The notes under the pieces: generated by a model
Databases searched by the model: none
What the model was told of the DNA's origin: nothing
The model's input: only the letters and a program-made list of their open reading frames with translations
Shown: positions 32,697 through 61,033 of the stretch, one piece after another
Position numbering within the stretch: the first letter of the stretch is position 1
Layout of the letters: each line of letters begins with the position of its first letter
Source of the DNA: Methanoculleus receptaculi
Lineage (GTDB): Archaea; Halobacteriota; Methanomicrobia; Methanomicrobiales; Methanoculleaceae
Assembly (NCBI RefSeq): GCF_033472595.1
Contig: NZ_CP137642.1
Coordinates: forward strand, 1,426,001 to 1,490,000
Direction: 5' to 3'
DNA: 64,000 nt
Translations under genes and position numbers: made by a program

Positions 32697-33104
32697 TTAC
32701 TTCTCCATCTGCGAGTCAACATACTCTTTCAGCGCATCGAGGCTTACCTGTCCTGATGTTGCAAGGAAATACGACGGAGACCAGAAGGAATCTCCCCCTG
32801 GCAAATTTTTCGTTGCAGGGAACTCCTGCCGTAATCTCCGTGCCGATACTCCCTTGATCACGTTGACAACATTGACGAGGTTGGTTTTCGGAGTCGCCTT
32901 GAAGAGAAGATGATAGTGATCTTCCGCAGGTTCGTGAGCAACAACGTCTATACCCAATTCGTCCGATAGGTTCCACACGATATCTTTCAGACGCTCTCGA
33001 ATATCGTCAGAATACAACGCTTTCCGGCGATATTTCACTACTATCACCAGATGATAGTAGAGAGCAAAGACCGAATGTGCAGACCTATCAAGTTTATGCT
33101 TCAT
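32697..33104 (-). CDS. tnpA: IS200-type Y1 transposase TnpA
   Basis: A 135-residue HUH single-strand transposase. The metal-binding HUH motif is HYH in EDHYHLLFKAT; the catalytic tyrosine is in the C-terminal helix KEYVDSQ. ALYYHLVIVVKYRRKAL is the conserved N-terminal strand. Length and motifs are complete, so the element may still move. It is directly followed by tnpB. Confidence 0.93.
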   Translation of the reverse strand: MKHKLDRSAHSVFALYYHLVIVVKYRRKALYSDDIRERLKDIVWNLSDELGIDVVAHEPAEDHYHLLFKATPKTNLVNVVNVIKGVSARRLRQEFPATKNLPGGDSFWSPSYFLATSGQVSLDALKEYVDSQMEK

Positions 33105-46216: not shown

Positions 46217-47053
46217 TCAGTATTTATACCACCGCCCCTTCTCATCGAATTCCCCCTGCAACTCCTGCAACCGCGCCGCACCAGAGGCGCGGTTGCTGAA
46301 AAAACTCGCCTTGTATGTGTAGTGGAACGCCGAAAAAATGAAGATCACAACGGCATAGACGATTGCAGTTATCCATACCCCCTCTGTCCCGATGAGGGCC
46401 AGGAGGTCCTCCGGCATCAGCGTCTGAAGTTCTGCCGGGCTCATGCTGACGAGCGGTTCAAGTTTGTCCACGAGGAGGGCCGACCAGGCAAAGAGGGCCA
46501 GAAAACCGAGAACGACCAGAACGAGTATGTTTATCAGGTAGAAGGCCAGGACGCCCCAGAGGTTGTTCATGACGAACTCAACGCTCCTCCGGATCGACTC
46601 AAAGACCTTCGTCCCCTCAAAGACCGCTGCGGTGTCGTAGAAGAACGTGAAGAAAGCAATCGAGAGAGCCACGCCGAGGATGAGTGCAGCCATGTTTGCC
46701 GCGATGCCCCCACCGATAAGCGCGAGCGGGATCGCAAGCAGAAAGACCGTCAGCATGATGGCAAAGTAGATCACAAACGATGGCAGGAGTATACGGAAGT
46801 AGCAGTGCTTCCCCGATCGCACAAACTCTGAGCCTGAGAAATTCTTCTCCTTGATCACACCGTAAACCCCGCCGGCAACGAATGGCATCACGAGAACCTG
46901 CAGGAGCAGCAGCGGTTGCGCATAGAACGTCCCGACCTCGAGCGGAACGACAAGATCGAGGACGGCGAGAACGCCCATGACAAGACCGATCAACCAGAGG
47001 ATGGGGTGCCGCCGGAGCAGGCCGGCGGCATCGGTGACCGATTTGAGCGCCAT
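46217..47053 (-). CDS. Multi-pass membrane protein of unknown function
   Basis: A 278-residue protein with about six membrane segments (ILWLIGLVMGVLAVLDLVV, VIYFAIMLTVFLLAIPLALIGGG, ALIGTEGVWITAIVYAVVIFIFSAFHYTYKASF) and a soluble C-terminal tail. It resembles archaeal DUF4013/DUF7847-type integral membrane proteins; no substrate is known. ATG 47053 with GGTGA just upstream is preferred to GTG 47059, which overlaps the stop of the pyruvate-kinase-like gene. Either way translation is coupled to that gene. Confidence 0.7.
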   Translation of the reverse strand: MALKSVTDAAGLLRRHPILWLIGLVMGVLAVLDLVVPLEVGTFYAQPLLLLQVLVMPFVAGGVYGVIKEKNFSGSEFVRSGKHCYFRILLPSFVIYFAIMLTVFLLAIPLALIGGGIAANMAALILGVALSIAFFTFFYDTAAVFEGTKVFESIRRSVEFVMNNLWGVLAFYLINILVLVVLGFLALFAWSALLVDKLEPLVSMSPAELQTLMPEDLLALIGTEGVWITAIVYAVVIFIFSAFHYTYKASFFSNRASGAARLQELQGEFDEKGRWYKY

Positions 47054-47055
47054 GT

Positions 47056-47646
47056 TCACCGATTCCTTGGCATGGCAACGATCTCGCGCACCTGCAGATC
47101 GAAGAAAGATGCGGTGTGTGCAGGGCGGATGACACAGACTGTATCAGCACCGCTGGCGGTGCCGCCTGCCGCGACCACCTCTTCATCGACGCCGACCACA
47201 CCCTGGTCGGCCGCGATAAGAACGCACTCAACCGCGACCTTCAGGCCGACCGCGAGAATGCGCCGCAGCGCCTCGGCGATCGCCTCGGTGCGGGAAGATC
47301 CCCCAAGCCGCTGTGAACGTGATATGGCGCGTTCAAGCCCGGAGAGAGCATGCGTTCCGGTGACGATCTTAACACCGTCCGCACGGAGAGCCGCGGCAGC
47401 CTCAGGTGAGAACTCCCACTCACCGGATTTTGAGAAACCGACCACATGGGTGACAACGATGAGTTCAAGACCCGTTCCCTTCATGGCATCCCGGAAGAGA
47501 AGCGCTGTGCGGCCGGTGGTGCTCGCGACAACGATCTTCTTGATCCCGAGTTCCTGTGCCCGCTCGACGGCAAAATGGGCTGCATCGTGCGTGTTCTCCG
47601 CGCCGGGTGAGTCAAAGTAGTAGGTATTCCGCGTTACAAAGCCCAT
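47056..47646 (-). CDS. Stand-alone pyruvate kinase C-terminal-like domain protein
   Basis: A 196-residue protein equivalent to the alpha/beta C-terminal domain of pyruvate kinase alone: HDAAHFAVERAQELGIKKIVVASTTGRTALLF and a second half VECVLIAADQGVVGVDEEVVAAGG. The catalytic barrel of pyruvate kinase is absent, so kinase activity is not expected. In full-length enzymes this domain binds regulators such as sugar phosphates, so a sensor role is possible. It is the first of two genes; the second encodes the membrane protein. Confidence 0.78.
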   Translation of the reverse strand: MGFVTRNTYYFDSPGAENTHDAAHFAVERAQELGIKKIVVASTTGRTALLFRDAMKGTGLELIVVTHVVGFSKSGEWEFSPEAAAALRADGVKIVTGTHALSGLERAISRSQRLGGSSRTEAIAEALRRILAVGLKVAVECVLIAADQGVVGVDEEVVAAGGTASGADTVCVIRPAHTASFFDLQVREIVAMPRNR

Positions 47647-47759
47647 GCACTCATGTTGTCATTCCTCCTAATTGAATCTCCCCCCAGGGCCGGCGGGAAA
47701 GAAGATGATAAATGGTGGTTGCCCCAACACTACTCCCAACGCTAACAGGAGACACCCTC

Positions 47760-48929
47760 ATGATCAGACTGGCCATTGCAGGAAAACCGAACTGCGGGAA
47801 ATCAACGTTTTTTAAGGCGGCAACCCTGGCTCAGGCTGAGATTGCCAGTTACCCGTTCACAACCATCGATGCCAACCACGGCGTCGCGTATGTAAGGACA
47901 GTCTGCCCCTGCAAGGAGATGCATGTCCCGTGTGAGAACTGTGTGGACGGTATCCGATTTGTTCCTGTCGGGCTGATCGATGTGGCAGGTCTTGTCCCCG
48001 ATGCTCACCTGGGGAGGGGGCTTGGAAACCAGTTCCTGGACCATCTCAGGCAGGCAGATGCGATTCTGCACATAGTGGATGCCAGCGGTGCGACGGACGC
48101 TGAAGGAAACCCGGTTGAGATCGGGTCGCGTGACCCCATAAAGGACATCGAGTTCCTGCAGTATGAGATCTCGATGTGGATGTACGGCATCCTCTCGCGA
48201 AACTGGGCGAAACTCCAGCGCCAGGCCCAGGCACGGGAATTCTCACTGGCAACAGCGATTGCGGAGGTGTTTGCCGGTCTTGGTATAACCTATGAACACG
48301 TTCACGATGCCACCAAAACGGTCGGGGTGGACCTGCGAACGGCGGGAGAGGAGGAGATGGTGGAGTTCTGCCGTGAGTTGATGAGGATCAGCAAACCAAT
48401 GCTGATCGTCGGGAACAAGGCCGATCAGGCGCCGAAAAAGTGCCTTGACCGGCTGGCGGGGCGCGATCTCATCTTTGCAAGCGCGGCCGGTGAACTTGCC
48501 CTCAGGATGGCCGCAGAGGGGAAGTTTATCCGCTATCTCCCGGGTGATCGGAATTTTGAGATTCTTTCCGGCGCAAACCTCAGCGCTGCCCAGCGTGCCG
48601 CCCTGCAGAAGATAGCCGTTTTCATGGAGATGTTTGATGGGACAGGCGTCCAGAAGGCGCTGGATACGGCGGTCTTCAAACTTCTGGACCGGATCGTGGT
48701 CTTCCCGGTCGAGGATGAGCATAAACTCACCGACAGCAAGGGGAGGGTGCTTCCAGATGCGTTCCTGATGAAGCGCGGGTCCACTCCTCGCGACCTTGCC
48801 TACCAGGTTCACTCAGATATCGGTGAGGGGTTCCTCTACGCCATCGACGCGAGGACCGGGATGCGGGTCAGGGATACTCACGAACTCAAGAACGGTGATA
48901 TCATCAAGATCGTAAGTGTCCGCAGGTGA
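47760..48929 (+). CDS. OBG/YchF-type GTPase/ATPase with TGS domain
   Basis: A 389-residue P-loop NTPase. G1 is AIAGKPNCGKSTFF, G2-G3 region covers SYPFTTIDANHG and GLIDVAGLVPDAHLGRG, G4 is IVGNKAD, and the C-terminal TGS domain starts with VFPVEDEHKLTDSKGR. Archaeal members act near the ribosome; the exact role is not known. A CPCKEMHVPCENC insert with four cysteines between G2 and G3 suggests metal binding. ATG 47760 follows AGGAGACACC; the upstream start at 47712 adds residues with no family support. Confidence 0.9.
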   Translation: MIRLAIAGKPNCGKSTFFKAATLAQAEIASYPFTTIDANHGVAYVRTVCPCKEMHVPCENCVDGIRFVPVGLIDVAGLVPDAHLGRGLGNQFLDHLRQADAILHIVDASGATDAEGNPVEIGSRDPIKDIEFLQYEISMWMYGILSRNWAKLQRQAQAREFSLATAIAEVFAGLGITYEHVHDATKTVGVDLRTAGEEEMVEFCRELMRISKPMLIVGNKADQAPKKCLDRLAGRDLIFASAAGELALRMAAEGKFIRYLPGDRNFEILSGANLSAAQRAALQKIAVFMEMFDGTGVQKALDTAVFKLLDRIVVFPVEDEHKLTDSKGRVLPDAFLMKRGSTPRDLAYQVHSDIGEGFLYAIDARTGMRVRDTHELKNGDIIKIVSVRR

Positions 48930-49021
48930 ACACCTGGGTTCAGGGGGGTATGATGCAGGCGGTTCTTACCGCGCGATCAAACCGATAAGCATTTATGCAA
49001 AATCGGGGATAAACGATTGTC

Positions 49022-49342
49022 ATGGGCGGCGAGGTCTACCAGGCCCAGGTTCTCCGGAACTTCTTTGACACCATCACCGGGACGGACAGGAACCTGACGA
49101 GGATCTACATGTGCGTGGTTAGCCTTGCCAAACTTCGGATGGAGCCACCCGAGAAGATGACGTTTCTGATCGATCAACTCCGCAAGTCGAGACAGAAACG
49201 TGAACTCTCTGTTGATATCATCGATTATATGTGCGACGTGGCGCGTGACCTTGAAATCACCACCGTCCAGACGGCGTTTGGCGTCAGGGACGTCAACAGG
49301 GTGGCGGATGAGTTCAGCGGAATAAGTCTTGACTCGCTCTGA
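49022..49342 (+). CDS. Small helical protein, uncharacterised
   Basis: A 106-residue soluble, mainly helical protein (YQAQVLRNFFDTITGTDRNL, TFLIDQLRKSRQKRELSVDI, DYMCDVARDLEITTVQTAFG). It is not recognised as a named family. CATTTATGC about 30 nt before the ATG fits a TATA box, and a clear T-run terminator follows, so it is a short one-gene transcript. Base use matches its neighbours. Confidence 0.75.
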   Translation: MGGEVYQAQVLRNFFDTITGTDRNLTRIYMCVVSLAKLRMEPPEKMTFLIDQLRKSRQKRELSVDIIDYMCDVARDLEITTVQTAFGVRDVNRVADEFSGISLDSL

Positions 49343-49344
49343 TC

Positions 49345-49387
49345 TTTTTTCCCGCTGATCCGGCAGGTATGACATGGTCTTTTTTTT
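49345..49387 (+). terminator. T-rich terminator
   Basis: CTTTTTTC (49344-49351) and an eight-T run (49380-49387) follow the stop of the 106-codon gene at once. Oligo-T tracts end archaeal transcripts. The remaining gap to 49618 shows only a CCCTGCGGGGGCAGGG inverted repeat. Confidence 0.55.
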
Positions 49388-50852: not shown

Positions 50853-51215
50853 CGGTATCTGGCAGTCTCGCCGCGGTCTCGCCCGACACTCCTGAAAGAT
50901 CCTGTTTCCTCTCCGTGCACGGCCACCGGGTCAATCGCCACGCACTGCCCGCCCCCTCTGGAGGGGGTGATCTATAAATACCGTTCAACGGGAAACGCGA
51001 GCGACAGGGGAGGGGGATGTTCCACCCCCTCCCCGGCGAGCCCCACCCCAGGGGGCGATTCCCCATCGACACAGTTCCACGGCGGAGATCCTCTCTCTGC
51101 CGTCGATGTGAACACCCTGCCGAAATCCGGTCTCCGTCCCCGTGCACGGCTATCCGGACTATCACCACAGACTGCCCGCCCGCCTCGAGAGGGGGTGGTC
51201 TACCTCGCACGGAAA
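50853..51215 (+). repeat. Two-unit array of the 266-bp repeat family (family 1)
   Basis: Two successive, incomplete units inverted relative to the 59.4-60.5 kb array. Unit 1 runs CGGTCTCGCCCGACACTCCTG, AAGATCCTG, CCGTGCACGG, CAATCGCCACGCACTGCCC, GCCCCCTCTGGAGGGGG. Unit 2 starts with TCTATAAATACCGTTCAACG, then GAGGGGGATGTTCC, TGATTCCCCAT-like GCGATTCCCCATCGACAC, CCGTCGATGTGAACACCCTG and ACTGCCCGCCC. It accounts for most of the gap 50715-51336, in which no gene is supported. Confidence 0.65.
50971..50982 (+). promoter_or_regulatory. TATA box inside the repeat unit
   Basis: TCTATAAATACC, an excellent archaeal TATA element, directed into the second unit of this array. The equivalent minus-strand site in the other array is GTCTATAAATACC at 60508-60520. 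Intermediate units there carry CTATGAACACC instead, a weakened version. It suggests that at least some units are, or once were, transcribed. Confidence 0.45.
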
Positions 51216-55049: not shown

Positions 55050-55724
55050 ATGAAGATAATTGGAATTAACGGAAGCCCCAGGGGTCCGGAAAGCAGGACC
55101 CGAAAACTCGTCCAGGCTGTCCTGGACGGGGCAAAGAGCGCCGGGGCGGATGTGGAACTCGTGGACGTCTCCAGACTCCAGATCGAGTACTGCAACGGCT
55201 GTCATATCTGCTATGAACAGGGGAAGTGCATAAACGACGACGATTTCACCGAACTCTACGAGAGTATGCTCGATAGCGACGGAATCGTCCTGGGCTCACC
55301 CAACTACGTAAACTCGGTCACCGCCCAGATGAAGACCATGCTCGACCGGATAACGGATGCCATCCACTGCCAGATGTTCCTCGGGAAGTACGGCTGCGCC
55401 GTCTCCACCGCCGGCGGTTCAGGGGCGGATGAGGTCGCGGCATACCTGAACCGCGTCCTGCTGAGCCTTGGCGCAAACACCGTTGGCAGCGTGGACGTCG
55501 TCGTCGGCACAGAGACCGACACGGCAGCGATGGAGGCCGCCGCGAAGAAGGCTTACGACCTCGGCAGGAGACTGGTGCAGGCCATCGAGAACCGCGAGAC
55601 CTACCCGGAACAGGAGAAGATCCATGCCGATATGATCGAGCACATGGTGGCGCTCGTCACGGCAAACAAGGACCGCTGGCCCCACCAGTACAACCACTGG
55701 AAAGAGGCGGGGCGGATACCCTAA
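55050..55724 (+). CDS. Iron-sulfur flavoprotein, NADPH-dependent FMN reductase-like
   Basis: A 224-residue flavodoxin-fold protein. FMN-binding GINGSPRGPESRTRKL is at the N-terminus. The compact cysteine motif YCNGCHICYEQGKC near residues 50-63 matches the [4Fe-4S] site of archaeal Isf proteins. GSPNYVNSVTAQMKTMLDR and SVDVVVG complete the fold. Isf proteins shuttle electrons and detoxify oxygen species in methanogens. GAGGTGAGAAGAG before ATG 55050 decides the start; the longer frame to 54870 is rejected. The last 4 nt overlap the convergent HEAT gene. Confidence 0.88.
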   Translation: MKIIGINGSPRGPESRTRKLVQAVLDGAKSAGADVELVDVSRLQIEYCNGCHICYEQGKCINDDDFTELYESMLDSDGIVLGSPNYVNSVTAQMKTMLDRITDAIHCQMFLGKYGCAVSTAGGSGADEVAAYLNRVLLSLGANTVGSVDVVVGTETDTAAMEAAAKKAYDLGRRLVQAIENRETYPEQEKIHADMIEHMVALVTANKDRWPHQYNHWKEAGRIP

Positions 55725-58700
55725 CCCTCCTCCACCACATTTCTGGCGCGGATCTCATCGATGATCCGCTGCAGCGTCTCCCGCTCCTTGCCCTCCATTT
55801 CCTCGAGCGCCTCTTCAAGTCCCGGCAGTGCTGCCTCTCCCATCTCGACAAGACCACGTTCTGCCCGTTTCCTGACCATGAACGTCTCGTCCCGGAGCGC
55901 GTGGATAAGGAGGGGGACAGACTCCCCGCCCCCGATCCTGTTTATGGCCCGAACCGCGTTTGCCCTGACCTCAACCACCGGGTCATCGAGCGCCTCTGCG
56001 AGAACCGGGAGCGCATCGGCACCGATCTCCTCCACCTCGCTCCAGCGGTTCATGGCCATCAGGTAGAGGACGCGCTGCTCTGTTGTCTCCGGCACCCAGC
56101 CGCCCGCCTCCAGCGCCTCGGCAACCCCTGCCCTGAACCCCTCGTCACCCGACCGGAGGGCACCGATCAGGCTGCGGCGCATCGTCTCATCGGGATACTT
56201 CAGCGCTTCGAGCGCGGCATGCCTGACCCGGTCATCAACATCGCGGAGCGCATGGATGAGCGGTTCCAGGGCACGGAGGTCGCCGATGTAGCCAAGCGAC
56301 CTTGCGGCGGCGACCTGGACGCGTTCGTCACGGTCCTGGAGCGCAAGTGAGAGCGGTTCTATAGCCTGTCTGCTCCCCATGTAACCCAGGCCCTCCACCA
56401 CCGCCGTCCTGACCTCGGGATCGGTCTCCCTGTGCAGGGCGCTGATCAGGGCCTCGATGGCACGTTTGTTCCCGATCTTGCCCAGGTTCTGGGCGGCAAC
56501 GATCCGGACAAACCGGTCGCTGTCGTCCAGGGCGTCCATGAGCGGTTCGACCGCGGTCTCACGCATCTCCCCCAGTATACCTGCAGCGGCGGCCTGGATC
56601 TCCGGATCCTCAGTCCTGAGCGCCCGGATGAGGCCGTCAACAGCAGGTTTCCCCATCATGATGAGACGCGTGGCGACGTTGAGCTGCATCTGCCAGTCCT
56701 TCTCCTTGAGCGCCGAGATGAGCTTCCCGACCTCCTGAGGCCCGGAACGCTCAAACGCTTTCCTGTCTTCCTGCCGGATCGGTTTTTTCTTCTTCTTTGG
56801 AGCCTGCACCTCCTCCTGAACCTGTTGGCCCAGCGCGCTCCGCCAGACATCGATCACCTGCCGTTTCTTGAGAGCGGCTGCCGCCTTCTCCCTCACCTCT
56901 TCATCTTCATCATCGAGTGCCTGGCGCAGAAGGTCAACCACACGCTCATCCTCGATCTCCCAGAGGGCATCGATCGCCGCAAGACGCATATCCCTGCTCC
57001 CCCTCCTCATCACAAGGGAGAGTGGATCGATAACCGGGGGCCCGAAATCGGCCAGGGCACGGGCAACGCTCCACCTGACCTCCGGCGCCGGGTCGCCCAG
57101 GTGATCTATCAAGACCGGGATCGACTCCATCACCCCGATCAGCCCGATAGCCCGCGCTGCCGTCACCCGGACGACGGTCACGGGATCGGAGAGAGCCTCC
57201 TCGAGCGCTTCAAGCGCGGCACGCCCGAAAACCGCGACCGCGTCCGCTGCGGCGACCCTTACACCGTGGTAGCGGTCGGCAAAGAGGTGGATCAGCGGCT
57301 GGATCGATCTCCGGTCGCCGATACGCGCGAGAGCAGAGGCTGCCGCGATCCGCACGTCCTCTCTCTCGTCGTGGGTGGCCTGGATCAGGGGATCTACGGC
57401 ATCCGCATCCCCCATCTGGCCGAGCGCATCCGCCGCGGCTACGCGTACCGCAGGGTGGGGGTCGTTGAGCGCCTGGATGAGGTATATGACCGCCTCCTTA
57501 CCCATTCCCTGCAGCGCTGCGACCGCCGCTGCCCTGACGGCCTCGTCAGGGCTCCGGAGGGCTTCAAGATACCGTTCCAGGGGTGACATCTGGGGAATGG
57601 GCTCAGGGGGTTCGGGTTCCTCCGGCGTCTCTGGAGCGATCTCGGGGATCTCGAGGGGCTGAGGTTCACGGTCTTCCTCATCGGAGAGGAGAACGCTTCC
57701 ACCCTCCTCACCCCCGGCCTCATCCATCCCGACAATCGCCTCCTCGAAATCGTGGGGGATGAGGTTTTCCAGCGGGATGGCGCCTTCAGGAGCCGACCTC
57801 TCGGCCTTCCACCGCTCTTTGACCCGTGCCCACGCCTCTTCCGCCATCCTGCTCTCCCTGATTATCTCATCAAGGTTCATCTCTTTTTTGGGGTTCACCG
57901 GGGCTGGGGCAGCGGGACTCTCCTGTTTCGGGGGTTCTGCCTCACGTTTCTGTGGTTTTCCGGAACCCTCTGTGACGGGGGTGTATCTTGGCCGTCCGAA
58001 GAGCTTCTCAAACCGTTTCTGGATGGCAAGCCCTTCTTTGAGTTCACGCTCGTAGCGGGAGGGGTCTTCCTCGACGGGCCGGGTAAGGGTCTCCTCTTCC
58101 TGGCGCCGCTGGATGTAGTGGAGAGCGGTCTTTGCCCGCTGCCGACGGCCGGGATCTTTTGAGGAGGACTCCGCCTTCAGGGCGCTTATCGCGGGCTGCC
58201 CCATCCTGCGCAGCGCTTCCGTCGCACCGATGCGGACGCCCGAGTAATCGATCTTGAGCGCCCGGATGAGGGAGGGGATGGCGGCTCTCCCCATGCTGGC
58301 AAGTTCGCTCCAGCGCTCTTTGGCAATCAGGTAGTCCACCCGCTGGAGGTTGCTCTGCGGCACCCAGCCCAGGCGGTCAAGCGCCCACGCCGCCTCCATC
58401 CGCACCTCGTGCCGGGGGTCGTTGAGCGCGTCGACCAGGATGGGCATCGCCTGGGGATCGCCTATATGGCCCAGCGCCTCGACGGCCCGCATGCGGACGT
58501 TCTCATTGCGGTCCTTCGCTGCTTTGGCAAGGGCAGGAGATGCCCGGAAATCGCGGATCCTGCCGAGTGTCCGTGCCGACTCAGAGCGTATACGCGGGTC
58601 TTTGCTCTCGAGGGCCTGAAGGAGGATCGGAACGGCCGCTCCCTGGAGTTTTGCAAGTTCTCCCCAGTCTTCAAGGAGGTAGTAGAACTCCACCTGCTCG

Positions 58701-59218
58701 GAGGTCTCTGTGGGCGTCCACCGCAGCCCGGCAAGCACGCGGGCGGCCTCTTTCCGCACGGCGGGGTTGCTGTCGTGGAGCGCCGGGGTGAGGTGGGGGA
58801 TTGCCTTTTTGCCCGCCCCCTGAAGAGCGATCACCGTTGCACGCCGGATCGCCGGCTGATCGTGCTGGAGGGCGGGCAACAAAGCCTCAAACATCGGTTC
58901 CCCCGCAGATGCGATCGCACTGGAGATTGCGGTCTGGAGCGCGGGGTCGGCACGGAGACTGAGGGTAAGGAGCAGGGGGATGGAGGGTGTGCCGACTGAG
59001 ACGAGCGCGCCGAGCATCCGGGTCTGTGAGGCGGGGCGGGCTCTCTCCAGGCTCCGGAGGAGGGTTGGGATGGCGCCGATACCCAGGTTGCAGAGAGCGC
59101 GTGCTGCCTCGGTGCGGCCGGCGGGGTCATCGCTGTCGAGGATCGCGATCAGACCGGGGTAATCCTTCGCCTGACGCAGACTTTCAACATCTGTCCTTAA
59201 CCTGTCAAAGAGTGCCAT
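55721..59218 (-). CDS. Large HEAT-repeat protein
   Basis: A 1165-residue protein built from about 30-residue HEAT/PBS-lyase-type repeats (consensus DP.VRVAAA.ALG.IGD.RA...L..AL.D) in an N-terminal block (about 1-370) and a C-terminal block (about 570-1150). Between them is a charged, disordered linker with QPLEIPEIAPETPEEPEPPE. A KKKKKP patch near 820 interrupts the second block. No enzyme domain, signal or membrane segment is seen. It is probably a cytosolic scaffold and its partner is unknown. Together with the TPR protein this window has two unusually large repeat scaffolds. It stands alone upstream of the repeat array. Confidence 0.88.
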   Translation of the reverse strand: MALFDRLRTDVESLRQAKDYPGLIAILDSDDPAGRTEAARALCNLGIGAIPTLLRSLERARPASQTRMLGALVSVGTPSIPLLLTLSLRADPALQTAISSAIASAGEPMFEALLPALQHDQPAIRRATVIALQGAGKKAIPHLTPALHDSNPAVRKEAARVLAGLRWTPTETSEQVEFYYLLEDWGELAKLQGAAVPILLQALESKDPRIRSESARTLGRIRDFRASPALAKAAKDRNENVRMRAVEALGHIGDPQAMPILVDALNDPRHEVRMEAAWALDRLGWVPQSNLQRVDYLIAKERWSELASMGRAAIPSLIRALKIDYSGVRIGATEALRRMGQPAISALKAESSSKDPGRRQRAKTALHYIQRRQEEETLTRPVEEDPSRYERELKEGLAIQKRFEKLFGRPRYTPVTEGSGKPQKREAEPPKQESPAAPAPVNPKKEMNLDEIIRESRMAEEAWARVKERWKAERSAPEGAIPLENLIPHDFEEAIVGMDEAGGEEGGSVLLSDEEDREPQPLEIPEIAPETPEEPEPPEPIPQMSPLERYLEALRSPDEAVRAAAVAALQGMGKEAVIYLIQALNDPHPAVRVAAADALGQMGDADAVDPLIQATHDEREDVRIAAASALARIGDRRSIQPLIHLFADRYHGVRVAAADAVAVFGRAALEALEEALSDPVTVVRVTAARAIGLIGVMESIPVLIDHLGDPAPEVRWSVARALADFGPPVIDPLSLVMRRGSRDMRLAAIDALWEIEDERVVDLLRQALDDEDEEVREKAAAALKKRQVIDVWRSALGQQVQEEVQAPKKKKKPIRQEDRKAFERSGPQEVGKLISALKEKDWQMQLNVATRLIMMGKPAVDGLIRALRTEDPEIQAAAAGILGEMRETAVEPLMDALDDSDRFVRIVAAQNLGKIGNKRAIEALISALHRETDPEVRTAVVEGLGYMGSRQAIEPLSLALQDRDERVQVAAARSLGYIGDLRALEPLIHALRDVDDRVRHAALEALKYPDETMRRSLIGALRSGDEGFRAGVAEALEAGGWVPETTEQRVLYLMAMNRWSEVEEIGADALPVLAEALDDPVVEVRANAVRAINRIGGGESVPLLIHALRDETFMVRKRAERGLVEMGEAALPGLEEALEEMEGKERETLQRIIDEIRARNVVEEG

Positions 59219-59407
59219 GATATCTGGCTGGATATTCGTTTGTTCGGAGGAATGTTCGTCACCGCAACCAATAAAACTACTATTGCCGGCTCCTGTGAGA
59301 GACCGGTTCAGTGGCTCTCCGGGAGGAGCGGGTATGAATGTCCATAAAGCCAGGTCGCTCGTGGTGTGATGCCCAGGATCACCACGGCGCTGAGACGTCT
59401 TTTGCGT

Positions 59408-60537
59408 TTGCCCGGCCCTGTCTCATGCGTTTCAACCAGGAACGGTTTTCGCTGGATGGACCCCCACCTCCCGGCGCGCTACCGCGGCCTCCTTCCGCCC
59501 CCTGCAAGGGGGCGGGCAGTGCATGGCGATAGCACCGGATATACCGTGCACGGGGAGTGGAGGCAGGATCTTTGGAGGGGTGTCAGGTGAGACCGCGAAG
59601 AGACTGCCAGATCCCCAGAGACTGTATCCATGGGGAATCACCCCGTGGGGGTGGTGCTGACGGGGAGGGGGATGGAACATCCCCCGCCCCTGTCTCATGC
59701 ATCTCCGATTGAACGGTGTTCATAGACTACCCCCGCCACCCGGCCGCTCACGCGGCCTCCTCCCGCCCCCTGCAAGGGGGCGGGCAGTGTGGGGCGATTG
59801 GCCCGATGGCCGTGCCAGGGGCGGAGAGAGGATCTTTCAGGAGTGTCAGGTGAGGCTGCGACGAGACTGCCAAATCCCGGGACACTGCATCGATGGAGAA
59901 TCACCCCGCGGGGGTGGGGCTGACGGGGAGGGGATGGAACATCCCCTCCCCTGTCTCATGCGTCTCCCGTTGAACGGTGTTCATAGGCTACCCCCACCGC
60001 CCGGCCGCTCCGCGGCCTCCGCCCGCCCCCTCCCGAGGGGGCGGGCAGTGCATGGCGATTGACCGGATATACCGTGCACGGGGGAGAGGAGACGGGATTT
60101 CGGCAGGGTTTTCACGTTGACGGCAGAGAGGTTGTCTACCCCCTGGCACTGTATCGATGAGGAATCGCCCCCTGGGGAGGGGCTGACGGGGAGGGGGATG
60201 TTTCCATCCCCCGCCCCTGTCTCATGCGTCTCCCGTTGAACGGTGTTCATAGGCTACCCCCACCGCCCGGCCGCTCCGCGGCCTCCGCCCGCCCCCTCCC
60301 GAGGGGGCGGGCAGTGCATGGCGATTGACCGGATATACCGTGCACGGGGGAGAGGAGACGGGATTTCGGCAGGGTTTTCACGTTGACGGCAGAGAGGTTG
60401 TCTACCCCCTGGCACTGTATCGATGAGGAATCGCCCCCTGGGGAGGGGCTGACGGGGAGGGGGATGGAACATCCCCCGCCCCTGTCTCATGCGTCTCCCG
60501 TTGAACGGTATTTATAGACTACCCCCACCGCCCGGCC
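59408..60537 (-). repeat. Four-unit tandem array of a structured 266-bp repeat (family 1)
   Basis: Anchors GGCGGGCAGTG recur at about 59512, 59780, 60041 and 60307, giving spacings of 268, 261 and 266 bp. Units 3 and 4 are nearly identical; units 1 and 2 are diverged. Each has a perfect 11-bp stem GCCCGCCCCCT/AGGGGGCGGGC (60287-60312 in the last unit) and an 8-bp stem GGGGGATG-GAA-CATCCCCC (60459-60477). On the minus strand the outermost unit starts at a TATA box. Several minus-strand frames begin MRQGRGMFHPPP or similar but shift between units. Blocks GACAGCATGG-like are absent and no transposase is present, so it is neither CRISPR nor an IS. Confidence 0.8.
60508..60520 (-). promoter_or_regulatory. 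TATA box reading into the repeat array
   Basis: GTCTATAAATACC on the minus strand, followed by CGTTCAACGGGAGACGCATGAG. Spacing to the ATG (60490) is about 24 nt, which would allow a leaderless transcript. Units 2 and 3 have CTATGAACACC at this place. It is the same sequence as at 50971-50982. Confidence 0.45.
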
Positions 60538-60676: not shown

Positions 60677-61033
60677 ATGATCACCGACCGCGAGAAAGCG
60701 GCGTTTGAAGCCGGGATCAAGCTCGGCGCCCTCTACCACCAGTTCGTCGGGACGCCGATCTCCCGCGAGACCGCTGATTCCGTTGAGACGGCCATCGAGC
60801 AGGCGGTCAGTCTCCAGCCCTGCGTGACGGATGTCCGCGTCCGGTTGAACCGCGAGATGATGGTCTCAAACCGGTTCGGCTACTCGGAACTTGCCGGGAG
60901 GATGCTCGATGCGGAGGTCACGACCCGGGTCGGGACGGCCGTCTGCCGCGCCCGGCTGCACCTCCAGGACGACTACCCCATGATGGAGATCGTAGAGACC
61001 CATGAAACTGCCCGCGATACCGATCACCGATGA
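60677..61033 (+). CDS. mptD: 7,8-dihydroneopterin aldolase, archaeal MptD family
   Basis: A 118-residue protein of the archaeal dihydroneopterin aldolase family (formerly DUF372), which releases glycolaldehyde from dihydroneopterin on the way to methanopterin. TDREKAAFEAGIKLGALYHQF at the N-terminus and YSELAGRMLDAEVTTRVG in the middle are family segments, with the conserved EAGIKLGALYHQF. Its end overlaps the TatD-like gene by 32 nt, so the two are co-transcribed. The array of repeats directly precedes it. Confidence 0.88.
   Translation: MITDREKAAFEAGIKLGALYHQFVGTPISRETADSVETAIEQAVSLQPCVTDVRVRLNREMMVSNRFGYSELAGRMLDAEVTTRVGTAVCRARLHLQDDYPMMEIVETHETARDTDHR

Follow-up and report, generated by a model that had tools for sequence, protein, structure and literature searches.

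The array at 59408-60537 (minus strand) of the 64,000-nucleotide stretch of Methanoculleus receptaculi DNA analysed here, which we refer to as the window, is built from a polar composite unit consisting of hairpin A, hairpin A2, a G-rich linker and an H1 hairpin. The composites are arranged head-to-tail, with a variable spacer from each H1 to the A that follows, which gives rise to the period of ~266 bp. On balance, we favour the interpretation that the array is a non-coding, intergenic DNA repeat of Methanoculleus, similar in kind to REP and satellite sequences, that evolves by recombination without a recognisable transposase. A short G-quadruplex motif known from the literature now sits inside a much larger composite repeat, and what has to be explained is a polar, tandem and recombining unit that goes beyond a 45-nt G4.

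Position and units of the array

TRF detected a single array in the window, at 59460-60537, with a period of 266 and 4.1 copies (85% matches) and, combined with the direct-repeat finder, this analysis resolves four ~266-bp units followed by a truncated fifth H1 start at 59408-59433. By choice, the minus strand of the window is taken as the sense strand of the array. All units lie on this strand and were delimited with the direct-repeat finder: unit 4, the first in the sense direction (60222-60486; family D5), which we bounded from GACAGG up to just before the following GACAGG; unit 3, nearly identical to its neighbour unit 4 (59956-60221; family D2); unit 2 (59695-59955); and unit 1 (59423-59694). 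The unit starts are spaced by 268/272, 261, 266 and 265 nt, which together with the TRF period bears out the four tandem units of the preliminary description. Its proposal of a recent local duplication of units 3 and 4 also holds, since these are identical over 258 of 258 nt (59943-60200 versus 60209-60466). A coding satellite was rejected because not every spacing (268/261/266) is a multiple of 3.

As initially described, the array (59408-60537) contains neither a gene nor a transposase. It fills most of a 1458-bp gap flanked by a divergent gene pair, namely a HEAT-repeat gene encoding a very long protein of 1165 aa (55721-59218, minus strand) and a dihydroneopterin aldolase gene (60677-61033, plus strand). 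In most other species, the orthologue of the HEAT-repeat gene and the aldolase gene are not neighbours. The proteins encoded beside the array have named matches at 80-90% identity that assign the genome to Methanoculleus, which bears out the initial guess of Methanomicrobiales. In the nearest relative without the array, Methanoculleus sp. Yes49-05 (L093), the gap is 454 bp long and is conserved over 62 bp and 42 bp at its ends, which from their position we infer to be the promoter regions of the two neighbouring genes. The array lies outside both of these promoters and is probably tolerated at this location, rather than being used as a gene or promoter. The TATA box that was considered to be built into the unit is real in so far as the TATA-like CTATAAATACC is present at 60508-60520 (minus strand), in the linker of the outermost unit, but just 6 of the 83 distinct linkers contain this sequence, the common forms being CCAGCGAAAACC or CTATGAACACC, and it is therefore not a defining part of the unit.

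A second cluster in the window, partly degraded and detected with nhmmer, comprises one full and one partial copy (50859-51198, plus strand; G000:1476859-1477198). The cluster is in plus-strand sense and is followed by a C module. The C module is a separate repeat of ~80-90 bp (GTCAGCCGCAAAAGACGT..CACCGCGGTGGTGAT..CATCAAACCATGAGC, e.g. L051:4171-4260 and L254-L262); a C-module query located it at 21 places here, where it often borders the 3' side of arrays, and had no match in the 36 other genomes searched. A weaker match to this module (..CAAAAGACGTCTCAGCGCCGTGGTGATC.., 59340-59407, minus strand) flanks the window array.

Hairpins of the composite unit

Read in the sense direction, the unit comprises GACAGGGG, the H1 hairpin, CCCCGTC, AGCCCC(T/A)CCCC with a small hairpin, GGCGAT(T/A) and the variable interior, and continues with ATCGCC, the CACTGCCC-hairpin A, the GGAGG-hairpin A2 and GGGAGGTGGGGGTG with the linker, up to the next GACAGGGG. 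This interior, which separates H1 from the following A, measures ~85-100 bp in this genome and is longer in others. Block A (with A2) and block B (with H1) are the parts found repeatedly in other species. Wherever both are found, A and H1 are strand-matched, and an inverted A was observed near H1 in 0 of 81 cores.

Hairpin A has a 12-bp stem in unit 4 (60287-60312; inverted repeat I18, also assessed by the arm-swap test below) and a perfect 12-bp stem in unit 3 (60021-60046, with arms 60021-60032/60035-60046; inverted repeat I17), and is located at 59762-59785 in unit 2 (inverted repeats I7 and I10) and at 59495-59517 in unit 1 (I7 and I8), in each case on the minus strand. Hairpin A2, on the same strand, occupies 60269-60283 in unit 4 (GGCCGC gga GCGGCC) and, as read from the sequence, 60003-60017 in unit 3, while the H1 hairpin of unit 1 is at 59663-59689 (plus strand; direct-repeat finder, family D6). 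Two stem-loops had originally been ascribed to every unit. The GC stem-loop is indeed present in all of them, although its length ranges from ~9 to 12 bp rather than being fixed at 11 bp, and the 8-bp GGGGGATG/CATCCCCC stem-loop is found in units 1, 3 and 4, whereas unit 2 carries a perfect 12-bp stem (59925-59951).

RNAalifold analysis of a MAFFT alignment was uninformative because the stems misalign, and we therefore used an alignment-free arm-swap test, in which the 3' arms are exchanged among copies and the loss of stability is scored as z. This gave values of -2.9 in this genome and -7.0 in relatives for A2, -2.6 and -5.6 for H1, and -1.7 and -2.2 for A, which is weaker than the other two, although all of these scores overstate independence because copies of one family share descent. 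Double changes among the A2 copies include GGCCGC/GCGGCC, GGCGCG/CGCGCC and GGCGCT/AGCGCC. Covariation, which the preliminary description proposed to examine, is thus apparent in A2 and H1 and to a lesser degree in A; the long-range helices P1, P2 and P3 show none among the copies of this genome. No covariation was detected at the variable pair of the GGCGAT/ATCGCC closure, and in relatives the interior closes better with its own partner, a weak result (z -2.5, n=11).

The H1 block corresponds to a published motif

The array had been thought to match no nameable repeat class, an assessment superseded by the finding that its H1 block, which on the plus strand is GGGGAGGGGCTGACGGGGAGGGGGATGGAACATCCCCCGCCCC, fits the plan of the rPQS motif published for Methanomicrobiaceae (PMC8044849). 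The rPQS/H1 cores are located on the plus strand at 60442-60482 in unit 4 (GGAGGGGCTGACGGGGAGGGGGATGGAACATCCCCCGCCCC, comprising the G-runs, the CTGAC loop and the C-tract), 60176-60217 in unit 3 and 59913-59951 in unit 2 (GGTGGGGCTGACGGGGAGGGG...CCCCTCCCC). Three units in the window have the published arrangement of G-runs, with a 1-nt first loop, a listed central loop of 3-5 nt, in this case CTGAC, and a single A as the third loop, and 36 of 60 units in this genome match a relaxed version of the plan. The C-tract (C3TC3) is likewise present 3' of the G-runs and complementary to the last two of them, as CATCCCCTCCCC in unit 2 and, with one substitution, as CCCCCGCCCC in units 1, 3 and 4, and there are many intergenic copies per genome, as in rPQS. 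In G036, which belongs to a different genus of the family, >100 pattern matches, overlaps counted, were obtained for a shorter core, for example GGGGAGGGGGTCTCCCCCTCCCC. The 266-bp unit has no match in that genome, despite the abundance of the related core.

Distribution in the genome and genus

A BLAST search of the whole 1,980,381-bp chromosome with the unit returned 102 matches, and two rounds of nhmmer defined ~49 clusters amounting to ~21.6 kb (1.09% of the genome), a census that represents a lower bound because nhmmer covered only the stretches that BLAST pointed to. The dozens of strong unit matches elsewhere in the genome place the array far above chance. Nor is the repeat local to this species, since the search of Methanomicrobiales genomes advocated in the preliminary description yielded copies in 31 of 35 Methanoculleus genomes (this one included) and in 0 of 26 genomes of the same family or order outside the genus; the four Methanoculleus genomes with no unit match are all drafts. 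The pattern GGTGGGG..GGGGAGGGG..CCCCTCCCC is also present in 31/35 genus genomes, and a reversed-pattern control gave 0 matches.

Of the 49 clusters, 19 are located in divergent, 9 in convergent and 20 in tandem gaps, with one at a fragment end, according to gene calls from a simple home-made coding model that may be wrong in individual cases; a predicted gene end is overlapped by one cluster only. In tandem-gene gaps, 10 arrays are sense and 10 antisense, a ratio that lends no support to a cis-acting RNA and on which a 5'- or 3'-UTR element was rejected.

Evolution and chromosomal position of the arrays

The nearest neighbour of a module is found within the same array for 14/38 B modules, 12/38 interiors and 8/38 A modules, compared with an expectation of 1.5, indicating local homogenisation. 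On the other hand, 32/58 units have B, interior and A modules whose nearest neighbours each belong to a different array, which gives the units a mosaic appearance. Copy number also differs at orthologous sites, with ~4 units in this genome versus ~2 in its nearest relative at L059/L204, and 5 versus 2 at L056/L208. At other sites an array in one species is missing in the other, in both directions, and at the site of the window array the nearest relative has no array and retains both flanking promoter regions. One array site (L039/L220) is common to this genome and the more distant G020. Since same-site copy number varies between species, the arrays may serve as typing markers and may be likely sites of rearrangement. 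This genome also differs from its nearest relative, G002, by an inversion, one junction of which coincides with arrays (L043/L203).

With the origin inferred from orc1/cdc6, and the positions of clusters in relatives taken from pattern matches, 34/40 clusters in this genome, 17/22 in G003 and 28/34 in G020 are located in the half of the chromosome distal to the main orc1/cdc6, compared with 19/40 in G029, which exhibits no positional trend. In G003, genes corresponding to window positions 46217-49354 adjoin genes from ~960.5 kb of the M. receptaculi chromosome (L215), which are ~0.5 Mb apart in the latter. Arrays are located near this join.

Our preference for a recombining repeat is based on its intergenic, genus-wide dispersal, the absence of TATA conservation and of orientation preference, the identity of units 3 and 4, the mosaic units, the change in copy number at orthologous sites, the inversion junction, the strict polarity, the compensated hairpins, the variable ends and the absence of copies from the virus, phage and plasmid records examined. 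Unequal recombination or slippage would change the size of arrays in both directions, and single-strand structures (hairpin, triplex or G4) may favour these events. Gene conversion or template switching would shuffle units between arrays, and the occasional seeding of new sites would keep the family dispersed. Selection on the structure, as opposed to mere tolerance of it, could explain the compensated hairpins and the presence of the L039/L220 site in a more distant species as well.

Function and mobility

A further possibility, which we consider unlikely although deserving of attention, is that the repeat is a DNA-structure element. Its H1/rPQS core would alternate among hairpin, triplex and G-quadruplex forms, and the element would act as an intergenic transcription terminator or insulator, or as a chromosome-organising site. 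Such a role would be in keeping with the intergenic siting, the co-varying hairpin arms, the lack of strand preference, as a DNA-level role predicts, and the origin-distal clusters in three of the four complete genomes. Moreover, G4, hairpin and triplex folding has been observed in vitro for oligonucleotides related to the core (PMC8044849; Front Microbiol 2021), although the folding experiments of that paper cover the GCA and ACC variants, not CTGAC. On the other hand, sites come and go between species, four (draft) genomes of the genus have no match, G029 lacks the positional trend and the same study found no regularity of rPQS relative to origins.

An enzyme encoded elsewhere in the genome might have moved the A-A2-linker-H1 composite as a MITE- or REP-like element, but this appears improbable. 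Imperfect inverted repeats, TATCGCCA/TGGCGATA, of up to 27 bp are located at the ends of some composites and would fit discrete transposition, as would the dispersal and high copy number. Single composites in relatives have imperfect inverted ends of 15-27 bp (e.g. L216, L215 and L243), with a mean inverted-end score of 19.0 versus 11.8 for shuffled sequences, and 5/12 exceed the 99th percentile of the shuffles. In this genome, however, only 3/11 composites do so, the ends are variable, with none fixed, and no target-site duplication was visible at the sites compared, where the species are too diverged to provide a clean empty site. The REP-type Y1 transposase PF01797 is absent from 28/35 genus genomes, including complete repeat-rich ones, and was rejected as the mover for this reason. 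Searches of viral, phage and plasmid collections returned no copies of the repeat. The dispersed copies and the short inverted repeats at the ends of some composites would thus be compatible with the non-autonomous mobile unit proposed earlier, but no fixed ends, target duplication or shared transposase was seen. An IS200-type Y1 transposase is encoded in the window at 32709-33074 (minus strand), one of three copies in the genome.

More speculatively, the family could represent a new kind of archaeal dispersed satellite, in which hairpins form a polar composite about a G-quadruplex core. An unrecognised enzyme or a replication-linked process would spread it, and it would accumulate distal to the origin and drive inversions and array expansion; we would give this scenario little weight.

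Finally, a structured non-coding RNA that each unit would produce as a minus-strand transcript, as also suggested initially, is very improbable: despite strong predicted folds, the co-varying A2, H1 and A stems and the interior closure in relatives, the linkers have no conserved promoter, gene-strand preference is absent, the long-range helices do not co-vary in this genome, Rfam gave chance-level matches only, at the gathering threshold and at E<=5, and the non-Watson-Crick departures in the stems (G-T 29 versus A-C 51 in this genome, 40 versus 35 in relatives) reveal no G-T excess, hence no G-U bias and no sign that one RNA strand is conserved.

Comparison with known repeat families

The Methanoculleus repeat resembles MITEs in its dispersal, its non-coding nature and the imperfect inverted repeats that some copies carry, but differs in that no fixed ends, target duplication or partner transposase were identified. 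It shares GC-rich palindromes, many intergenic copies and a mosaic layout of multiple palindromes with the REP/BIME sequences and REPINs of bacteria. In contrast to these, it is archaeal, has a unit of ~266 bp that is repeated head-to-tail rather than in alternation and lacks an associated REP-type Y1 transposase across the genus. Of the two features that characterise RAYT-mobilised REPs, the transposase is missing from most genomes of the genus, many of which carry the repeat, and the alternating palindrome of 20-40 nt is at odds with the 266-bp head-to-tail unit and the absence of inverted A.

Like prokaryotic satellites (PMC6749651), the repeat forms non-coding head-to-tail arrays, several per genome. 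The survey that defined these was restricted to >=4 tandem repeats with a unit length of 10-200 nt, which excluded a ~266-bp unit from the outset; the window array is tandem and non-coding with 4.1 copies, but its period of 266 falls outside that definition. Dispersed families of long non-coding satellites were reported in that survey only from Leptospira interrogans and Methanocella conradii. Our findings suggest that such satellites, reported to be rare in prokaryotes, are common in Methanoculleus, a genus of methanogens that matter in biogas plants; in this genome they involve ~1% of the chromosome.

The closest correspondence is with rPQS (PMC8044849), since the plus strand of H1 reads GGGG-A-GGGG-CTGAC-GGGG-A-GGGGG followed by the C-tract, CTGAC being among the central loops reported for Methanoculleus, and both are intergenic without orientation bias. 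Approximately half of the rPQS gaps are reported there as tail-to-tail and 11% as head-to-head, which differs from the predominance of divergent over convergent gaps among the arrays described above. The main text of that paper covers the short core only, and does not describe the A/A2 hairpins, the 266-bp composite, arrays, mosaics or orthologous copy-number change. What the present analysis adds is the polar A-A2-linker-H1 composite together with its tandem arrays and mosaics, the change in copy number at orthologous sites and the origin-distal clustering in three of four complete genomes.
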